Assembly (NCBI RefSeq): GCF_013402875.1
Contig: NZ_CP058579.1
Coordinates: 3,782,001 to 3,846,000 of the forward strand
DNA length: 64,000 bases
Origin: Halorarum salinum
Lineage (GTDB): Archaea; Halobacteriota; Halobacteria; Halobacteriales; Haloferacaceae
Direction: 5' to 3'
Shown: piece by piece, positions 10,143-11,958 of the stretch
Layout of the letters: each line of letters starts with the position of its first letter
Position numbering within the stretch: position 1 is the first letter of the stretch
The notes under the pieces: generated by a model
What the model was told of the DNA's origin: nothing
Database searches by the model: none
Seen by the model: only the letters and a program-made list of their open reading frames with translations
Program-made: the position numbers and the translations under genes

Positions 10143-10150
10143 ACTTATCA
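10143..10150 (+). promoter_or_regulatory. TATA box (box A) of the homoserine dehydrogenase operon
   Basis: The sequence acttatca with TTAT at 10145-10148 lies 27-30 bases before the ATG at 10175. This is the spacing of an archaeal TATA box to its transcription start, so the transcript is predicted to begin at or next to that ATG. The first codons translated would then be those of the small leader ORF, 141 bases before the ACT gene. Confidence 0.55.
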
Positions 10151-10174
10151 CCTCCCCACCCCCACGAACCGACC

Positions 10175-10315
10175 ATGCCAAGTGGCACGACCCACGGTCG
10201 GCGCGACGGCTGCGAACGACGGCACCAGCCCCGCACGTCGACAACAATCATCGGGTCGGCCACGACGGACGGAACCCGGATCGGACCGGCGGACGCGCTC
10301 CGGGGGGCGAGTTAG
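10175..10315 (+). CDS. Putative Thr/Ile-rich leader peptide of the hom operon
   Basis: A 46-codon ORF, 8 Thr and 3 Ile, with the run TSTTIIGSATTDGTRI at residues 21-36. Two successive Thr codons are ACA, unusual in this GC-rich genome, and are followed by two ATC Ile codons. The ATG lies 27-30 bases after a TATA box (leaderless). The TAG at 10313-10315 is directly followed by the ATG of the ACT gene, which favours coupled translation. The start codon is embedded in a short inverted repeat (tgcca-ag-tggca, 10176-10187). The Thr/Ile run resembles bacterial ThrL leader peptides ahead of homoserine dehydrogenase genes; attenuation here is inference. It could instead be an incidental ORF within a 5' UTR. 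Confidence 0.5.
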   Translation: MPSGTTHGRRDGCERRHQPRTSTTIIGSATTDGTRIGPADALRGAS

Positions 10316-10984
10316 ATGACCCCCGAACCGGCGTCCGCCCACGGCGAGCGCCCGCCGTCGGGGAGGACCGTGCTGACCGACGGCGGCCCCGGACGCGACG
10401 ACGCGTCGGGTGCCGACGGCGACGGCCCGAAGGGCGACCCCGCCGAGACCCAGGCCGACGGCGGCGACGCCCCCGTCGCCCACACCATCCGCCTCGAACT
10501 CGTCGACGAACCCGGCCAGCTGCTCGCGGCGCTGAAGCCCATCGCCGAGCACGGCGGCAACCTCCTGTCGGTGTTCCACGAGCGCGGGAACATCACGCCG
10601 CGCGGGCACATCCCCGTGGCCGTCGACATCGAGTGTCCGCCCGACCGGTTCGACACCATCCTCGAGGCGCTGCGCGAGAACGGCGTGAACGTCACCCGCG
10701 CCGGCGCCGAGGAGTTCGGCGCCGAGGTGACCGTCGTGCTCGTCGGGCACCTCATCGACACCGACCTCTCGGACACCCTCCGCCGGCTGGCCGACTGCGC
10801 GAACGCGACCGTCGCCGACCTGGAACTGTCCGCGCCCGCGGGCGCCGGGAGCGACGAACAGTCGAGCGCTCGCCTGCGCCTCCGCGCGCGGGAGGGCGAG
10901 ACGCGCGAGGTGCTCGACACCGTCCGGTCGGTCGCCGGGGAGAAGGGGATCCACGTCATCGAGCCGATGGAGGGGGGCCAATGA
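10316..10984 (+). CDS. ACT-domain amino-acid-binding regulatory protein
   Basis: A 222-residue protein. Residues about 55-130 form an ACT domain (HTIRLELVDEPGQLLAALKP followed by GGNLLSVFHERGN), and about 140-215 a second related domain with EVTVVLVGHLIDTD. ACT domains bind amino acids and tune linked enzymes. The gene overlaps hom by four bases (ATGA), so the pair is translationally coupled. The inference is that it senses threonine, isoleucine or a related product and acts on homoserine dehydrogenase, which here lacks its own ACT domain. The first 50 residues are low-complexity (Gly/Asp/Pro) and may be disordered; a later start is possible, but ATG 10316 abuts the leader ORF stop. Confidence 0.85.
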   Translation: MTPEPASAHGERPPSGRTVLTDGGPGRDDASGADGDGPKGDPAETQADGGDAPVAHTIRLELVDEPGQLLAALKPIAEHGGNLLSVFHERGNITPRGHIPVAVDIECPPDRFDTILEALRENGVNVTRAGAEEFGAEVTVVLVGHLIDTDLSDTLRRLADCANATVADLELSAPAGAGSDEQSSARLRLRAREGETREVLDTVRSVAGEKGIHVIEPMEGGQ

Positions 10985-11958
10985 CGCGGCTCGCCGTCCT
11001 CGGCGCCGGCGCCGTCGGCCGCTCCGTGGCGGAGCTCGCGGCCGAGTATGGCCACACCGTCACCGCGCTCGCCGACTCGACCACCGCGACGGTCGACCCC
11101 GAGGGCGTGGACGTGGCCGCCGCGCTCGCCGACAAGGGAGCGGGCGCGGGGCTCGGCGACGCCGACCCGGCCGACGCGCTGTCGGCCGAGTACGACGTGC
11201 TCGTCGAGGCGACGCCGACGACGCTCGGGGACGCCGAGCCCGCGTTCTCGCACCTCCGGACGGCCCTGGAGCGGGACGGACACGTCGTGCTCGCGAACAA
11301 GGGCCCCGTCGCCGAGCGCTACGCCGACGTCCGCGCGCTCGAGGCCGAGAGCGCCGGCGAGGTGCTGTTCGAGGCGACCGTCGGGGGCGCGATCCCGGCG
11401 CTCGCGACCGTCGACGACCTCGGCCCCGAACGGGTCGAGGCCGTCAGGGGCGTGCTCAACGGAACGGCGAACTTCGTGCTCTCCCGGATGGCCGCCGAGG
11501 GGCTCGACTACGACCACGTGCTCGCGGAGGCCCAGGACCTCGGCGTCGCCGAGGCCGACCCGTCCTTCGACGTGGAGGGGACCGACGCGGCGCTGAAGTG
11601 CGTCATCCTCGCGAACGTGCTCCGTGAGGCCGACTGCGGCTCGATCGAGGAGCTTCGGGAGCGGGAGCTCTCGCTCGCGGACGCGACCGTCGACGGCATC
11701 CGGAACGTCACCGGGAGCGCGCTGGAACTCGCGAGCAACGACGGCCGGACGGTCAGGCTCATCGGCGAGGCGACGCGCGAGGGCGTTCGCGTGGGTCCGC
11801 GGCTGGTCCCGGAGAACGGCACCCTCGCGGTGTCGGGCACGCGGAACATCGTCGAGATCGACGCGAGGTACGCCGGCAACCTGGCCATCTCGGGTGCGGG
11901 GGCCGGGGGGGAGGAGACCGCTAGCGCGGTGCTCTCGGACGTCGGTCGGCTGGGGTAG
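10981..11958 (+). CDS. hom: Homoserine dehydrogenase
   Basis: Reduces aspartate semialdehyde to homoserine, the branch to threonine, methionine and isoleucine. 325 residues: Rossmann NAD(P)-binding motif GAGAVGRS at about 7-14, the active-site region VLANKGPVAERY (about 102-113), ATVGGAIPAL (about 129-138) and the substrate segment GVLNGTANFVLSRM (about 159-172). The C-terminal ACT domain of many bacterial enzymes is missing; regulation may be supplied by the ACT protein encoded just upstream (4-base overlap). A lysine in the LKCVILAN segment (about 204) corresponds to the conserved catalytic region. Confidence 0.95.
   Translation: MTRLAVLGAGAVGRSVAELAAEYGHTVTALADSTTATVDPEGVDVAAALADKGAGAGLGDADPADALSAEYDVLVEATPTTLGDAEPAFSHLRTALERDGHVVLANKGPVAERYADVRALEAESAGEVLFEATVGGAIPALATVDDLGPERVEAVRGVLNGTANFVLSRMAAEGLDYDHVLAEAQDLGVAEADPSFDVEGTDAALKCVILANVLREADCGSIEELRERELSLADATVDGIRNVTGSALELASNDGRTVRLIGEATREGVRVGPRLVPENGTLAVSGTRNIVEIDARYAGNLAISGAGAGGEETASAVLSDVGRLG

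Follow-up and report, generated by a model that had tools for sequence, protein, structure and literature searches.

A candidate ribosome-read threonine-codon leader ORF ahead of the ACT and hom genes in Halorarum salinum and related Haloferacaceae

Control of amino-acid genes by leader peptides, exerted through the reading of codons by the ribosome, is a classic mode of regulation in bacteria. In the bacterial attenuators of this type (ThrL and those of trp, his, phe, ilv and pheST) a short leader ORF precedes the pathway gene, and a run of codons for the pathway's own amino acid is embedded within RNA helices. The thrL leader of Escherichia coli carries threonine and isoleucine codons ahead of homoserine dehydrogenase. 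In Streptomyces, the auxiliary Trp-tRNA synthetase is preceded by a Trp-codon leader, which operates by bacterial transcription attenuation.

For haloarchaea, strict termination-reinitiation coupling has been published for overlapping gene pairs of Haloferax volcanii, where internal Shine-Dalgarno (SD) motifs aid coupling and have no part in de novo initiation (PMC6728339). The portion of the H. volcanii transcriptome study by Babski et al. (2016) that we draw on describes transcripts as mostly leaderless, and holds that structured leaders play only a small part in haloarchaea, where long 5'-UTRs are few (PMC4983044). Its Table 2 lists uORFs in long 5'-UTRs at pheS (26 aa) and at the gene of a Trp-tRNA ligase (23 aa); this portion of the study covers only 5'-UTRs of 150–250 nt, hom/ACT is not among its uORFs and no codon-sensing role is stated in it (PMC4983044). 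A search of the open-access literature, which mostly excludes subscription journals and preprints, found no report of a codon-reading leader in Archaea.

The leader described here, located in a 64,000-nt stretch of the Halorarum salinum genome (hereafter the window), resembles leader-peptide control in its anatomy and would be a variant of it. Within the clade of the window the likeness to thrL extends to threonine plus isoleucine codons ahead of homoserine dehydrogenase. In contrast to the bacterial attenuators, however, the leader is archaeal, has a predicted leaderless start, is devoid of a detectable intrinsic terminator, overlaps or abuts the next gene with its stop codon, and shows no relation to them in sequence or in Rfam. 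Since a terminator or a switch at the ribosome binding site was looked for and not found, we do not assign the leader to the family of bacterial attenuators. With the termination-reinitiation gene pairs of haloarchaea the leader shares the ATGA/TGATG overlap and an SD motif within the upstream ORF, but it differs from them by an unconserved peptide, by conserved rare codons together with a fold, and in not being a protein gene.

Layout and conservation of the leader ORF

The leader ORF spans positions 10175–10315 of the forward strand, on which all features given below are located, and consists of 46 codons (MPSGTTHGRRDGCERRHQPRTSTTIIGSATTDGTRIGPADALRGAS) followed by a TAG stop (10313–10315). 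A TATA-box-like CTTATC (10144–10149) is situated with its first base 31 nt ahead of the ATG; the ORF is predicted to be leaderless, its ATG coinciding with the predicted transcript start. Two tandem rare threonine codons, ACA ACA (10241–10246), are directly followed by the isoleucine codons ATC ATC (10247–10252), and the 3' end of the ORF contains the purine-rich SD-like stretch GGGGGGCGAG (10302–10311), which is weaker than the GGAGGTG of relatives. Directly next to the leader stop lies the start of the ACT-domain gene (10316–10984; PF01842), which in turn shares an ATGA overlap (10981–10984) with hom, encoding homoserine dehydrogenase (10981–11958; PF00742, PF03447). The elements named in the original prediction were all found at the positions given there, including the 46-codon ORF behind a TATA box, the two ACA codons in a GC-rich setting (ACA accounts for 3 of 152 threonine codons in five genes of the window) and the leader stop abutting an ACT gene that overlaps hom. 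The leader ORF has no match in Pfam, and neither a terminator nor a promoter of the bacterial consensus type was detected in the leader region. At the predicted transcript start, a TGCCAAGTGGCA palindrome (10176–10187) common to the genus of the window could also be a DNA operator.

Loci of hom/ACT were gathered from whole genomes and from named genomes, yielding 63 leaders in a sample of 28 Haloferacaceae genera. An equivalent leader ORF precedes ACT-hom in 22 of these genera (tally over the sampled loci), its length ranging from 34 to 65 codons. The first base of the TATA element lies 31 nt from the leader ATG at 50 of the 63 loci. Relative to the leader stop, the ACT start is found at −4 (51 leaders), 0 (nine) or +1 (one), together 61 of 63, while the frame relative to ACT varies by genus. 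In most genera a GGAGGTG-type SD motif resides inside the 3' end of the leader, so that the geometry of termination-reinitiation, a stop overlapping or abutting the next start combined with an internal SD, is present, albeit with a weak SD in the window itself. The peptide reads MPSGTTHGRRDGCER..QPRTPITIIGS in the clade of the window and MPSGTTTGSRCVGTELSRGPFPSPITII in Haloplanus-type genomes; the remaining genera display forms of 34–39 codons, for example MQTGTPLPRRIDTEQQYDRSLSTTGERRVREVER. The leader of Haloferax has 35 codons. Conservation across genera in combination with frame-preserving length changes indicates that the leader is more than a chance ORF. The ACA leader is absent from six of the 28 sampled genera, one of which retains a 17-codon remnant that lacks ACA and keeps the stop-start overlap. 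Outside the Haloferacaceae, the ACT gene of Halorussus is leaderless, and others follow leader ORFs of 12–13 or 27 codons devoid of conserved threonine codons; the ACT paralogues, readable in three genomes, have no ACA leader.

An in-frame ACA codon occurs in 61 of the 63 leaders. In 60 leaders the core, composed of one or two in-frame ACA codons, is located at nt 66, 69, 72 or 75 counted from the ATG, the three exceptions being the 17-codon truncation, a frame shift of 1 nt and a leader with a lone in-frame ACA earlier, at nt 57. Ahead of the core, leaders differ in length by whole codons in 60 of 61 cases, which shows that the reading frame is preserved. Beyond nt 60, further ACA triplets number 57 in frame 0 as against four and seven in frames 1 and 2, although many of the 57 are an inherited tandem copy and do not represent 57 events. 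Of the threonine codons in the leaders, 31% are ACA, compared to 8% in ACT and hom; such counts partly reflect shared ancestry, the second tandem ACA being mostly inherited rather than independent. The expectation of conserved Thr/Ile-rich ORFs before hom/ACT in haloarchaea therefore holds for threonine (22 of 28 genera) and in part of the genera for isoleucine, whose codons stand beside ACA only in the clade of the window and in Haloplanus-type leaders; sensing of isoleucine would at best be lineage-limited. In one Halorubrum-type genome a length change of 1 nt places ACA out of frame, by sequencing error or decay.

Predicted RNA fold around the threonine codons

The ACA run is flanked by two nested RNA helices. 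In the outer helix, strand a (GTGGCACGACCC, 10182–10193) pairs with strand d (GGGTCGGCCAC, 10253–10263), joining codons 2–8 to the stretch directly 3' of the ACA codons. The inner hairpin is formed by strand b (GTCGGCGCG..GGCTG, 10197–10212) and strand c (CAGCC..CGC..GTCGAC, 10226–10242), the latter ending at the first ACA. The threonine and isoleucine codons of the window are thus situated at the junction between strands c and d, and in the predicted fold both helices are placed where a ribosome at the ACA codons would disrupt them.

Each of the four strands was predicted by folding and examined by shuffling, strand b additionally by covariation in a clade of relatives. The folding energy of the b:c hairpin lies below that of shuffles with a mean z of −1.60, compared to −0.24 for control segments, and its pairing exceeds that of shuffles with a mean z of −2.48 (p<0.1 in 84%). 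In 13 leaders that align without gaps, 91.6% of the pair cells form and four pairs show compensating changes; the covariation score was reached by none of 500 shuffles, which ignore relatedness, and paired cells fall to 31–41% in slid control structures. For the outer helix, pairing of strand a with the 24 nt after ACAACA gave a mean z of −1.47 (p<0.1 in 56% of 45 leaders, as against 7% for each of three control segment pairs), this narrower region having been picked after folds had been inspected, whereas an earlier test with wider windows yielded no overall signal (mean z −0.27). Pairing of c with the SD, of b with the SD and of a with c showed no excess over shuffles in the leader set, and an alternative fold in which strand c or b would pair with the SD was consequently rejected, as shuffles equal it. 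The ACA run has an unpaired probability of 0.68, compared to 0.40 across the whole leader.

Selection on the leader peptide itself was rejected, given that pN/pS is near 1 (0.9–1.2) within four clades. Lack of conservation of the peptide implies that the leader acts in cis. In the genus of the window and in Halorubrum, conservation is much stronger over the first 23 codons than over the rest of the ORF. This contrast applies to synonymous sites as well as to the others, a pattern expected from constraint at the nucleotide level.

Possible mode of action and alternative readings

The predicted leaderless start, the in-frame rare ACA codons, the nested helices, the stop at the ACT start, the unconserved peptide and the codon-matched leaders at other genes (see below) together argue for a cis-acting threonine-codon leader ORF that is read by ribosomes and gates ACT and hom at the level of coupled translation, a reading we consider probable. 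Strict coupling of overlapping pairs and the mostly leaderless transcripts of H. volcanii point to the leader as the most likely supplier of ribosomes for ACT-hom. Ribosomes would start on the 5'-terminal leader ATG, their speed at ACA would be set by charged tRNA-Thr(UGU), and their dwell at these codons would gate the coupled translation of the two genes. A ribosome dwelling at ACA would keep strands c and d apart, and the fold composed of a:d and b:c could not close over the 5' end; with ample threonine, ribosomes would pass, the fold would close, initiation at the leader would drop and expression of ACT-hom would fall. For this output step and its sign, 5'-end gating is weakly suggested by the folding models: with a ribosome at ACA, opening of the 5' end costs about 1 kcal/mol less (26 of 47 leaders; p=0.025), an exploratory result that is not specific for ACA and comes from one of several models tried. 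Neither a mutually exclusive terminator of the bacterial consensus type nor an alternative fold sequestering the ribosome binding site was found for the leader. Unmasking of the ACT SD site by a ribosome stalled at ACA is unsupported in two thermodynamic versions. The idea of attenuation or coupling put forward in the original prediction is borne out in part, by the conserved in-frame ACA codons and by codon-matched leaders at pheS, auxiliary trpS and ilvB. Attenuation itself, in the sense of stalling with an effect on hom, is at this point a hypothesis: no terminator was found, and the folding tests did not favour opening of the ACT SD by a stalled ribosome.

The same sensor might also operate with opposite sign, threonine shortage stalling ribosomes ahead of the ACT start and thereby lowering coupled translation of ACT-hom. 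This variant, which is counted within the preferred reading, is a tentative one: under the strict coupling published for H. volcanii (PMC6728339) stalling could equally reduce hom expression, and the SD is a little more accessible in the free native fold than when strand a is shuffled (4.82 vs 5.67 kcal/mol, p=0.0003), but a decrease upon shortage runs contrary to the usual logic of end-product control, and the leaders at other genes precede genes expected to rise upon shortage. Alternatively, the leader might do no more than supply the ACT start with ribosomes through termination-reinitiation, the ACA codons being present for reasons other than sensing. The strict coupling typical of H. volcanii (PMC6728339) would suffice for such delivery, and it is in line with the 12–13-codon leader ORFs of Haloarcula-type relatives, which possess ATGA at the ACT start and no conserved threonine codons, as well as with the 17-codon ACA-less version in one Haloferacaceae genus. 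We regard delivery without sensing as unlikely, however, in view of the near-invariant in-frame ACA with a fold around it and of the amino-acid-matched leaders at pheS, trpS2 and ilvB.

An RNA switch that binds tRNA in the manner of a T-box, or another structured RNA presenting ACA in a bulge, would make translation of the ORF incidental. Constraint at the nucleotide level with a pN/pS of about 1 and the position of the unpaired ACA run, at the junction on the 3' side of a long helix, are compatible with such an RNA, but Rfam returned only chance matches and no relevant family even at E up to 5, the T-box model included. Moreover, the frame is kept through length changes, the stop keeps its place at the ACT start, and the FFF, WRWW and IIV runs in the leaders of other genes fit codon reading, which renders an RNA switch quite improbable. 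In the window, leader ORF and ACT gene share a reading frame with the TAG alone between them, a detail absent from the original prediction, and the window by itself would be compatible with a broken N-terminal extension of the ACT protein. Relatives exclude this reading, as their leaders occupy other frames relative to ACT; taken together with the possibility of a functional small protein, against which the within-clade pN/pS and the missing Pfam match also speak, it is the least credible of the alternatives and can be given hardly any weight.

Codon-matched leaders at other amino-acid genes

Upstream regions of amino-acid genes in Haloferacaceae were sampled gene by gene for leaders of the same class. 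Upstream of pheS lies a leader ORF of 24–29 codons ending in GFGFFF or similar (MAPEPAVDRTAPETATGGFAFFFRRA in H. salinum), the auxiliary trpS gene (trpS2) has leader ORFs of the PWRWW type, and leaders ending in LIIVGA or similar precede ilvB at most of 24 loci, with GTA GGG invariant in the 16 that were tabulated. A table of motif by gene is near diagonal (FFF at 15 of 30 pheS loci, W at four of seven trpS2 loci, IIV at 16 of 24 ilvB loci and ACA at 20 of 32 hom loci, with off-diagonal counts of 0–2), where the TATA filter was loose, motifs were picked after viewing some loci and the off-diagonal zeros serve as control. The upstream regions of thrC, thrS, hisG, trpC, leuA and the main trpS, in contrast, contain no codon runs for the respective amino acid, trpC being mostly leaderless itself. 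The trpS2 leader shares its Trp codons with the Streptomyces auxiliary synthetase attenuator and differs from the latter's bacterial transcription attenuation. The uORFs at pheS and Trp-tRNA ligase in Table 2 of Babski et al. agree with the leaders found here (PMC4983044).

Whether these leaders constitute a family of ribosome-read amino-acid leaders in Haloferacaceae, present at at least four operons (Thr/hom, Phe/pheS, Trp/auxiliary trpS and Ile/Val/ilvB), is a question on which we are evenly balanced. Such a family would be terminator-free, would reside on leaderless transcripts and would act via 5'-end initiation gating and termination-reinitiation; it would represent leader-peptide control in Archaea, probably with an evolutionary origin separate from that of its bacterial counterpart. 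Several conserved candidate leaders with codons matching the downstream gene occur in genera including the model Haloferax and, if they do read codons, would bear on the view, expressed in the part of PMC4983044 cited above, that haloarchaea make little use of structured leaders.

The individual leaders display further features. The pheS leader of H. salinum is predicted to be leaderless and by eye possesses a possible hairpin right before the Phe codons, with a conserved CGAAACC downstream. In the ilvB leader of H. salinum, ATY ATY GTA GGG and the CCCCTA that follows the stop can give rise to a hairpin enclosing the leader stop. The auxiliary trpS leaders contain a conserved GGAGCGGACAGT stretch 3' of the Trp codons. 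Just ahead of the leaderless start of trpC, conserved GTACA..TGTACA-like repeats are located, possibly a repressor site.
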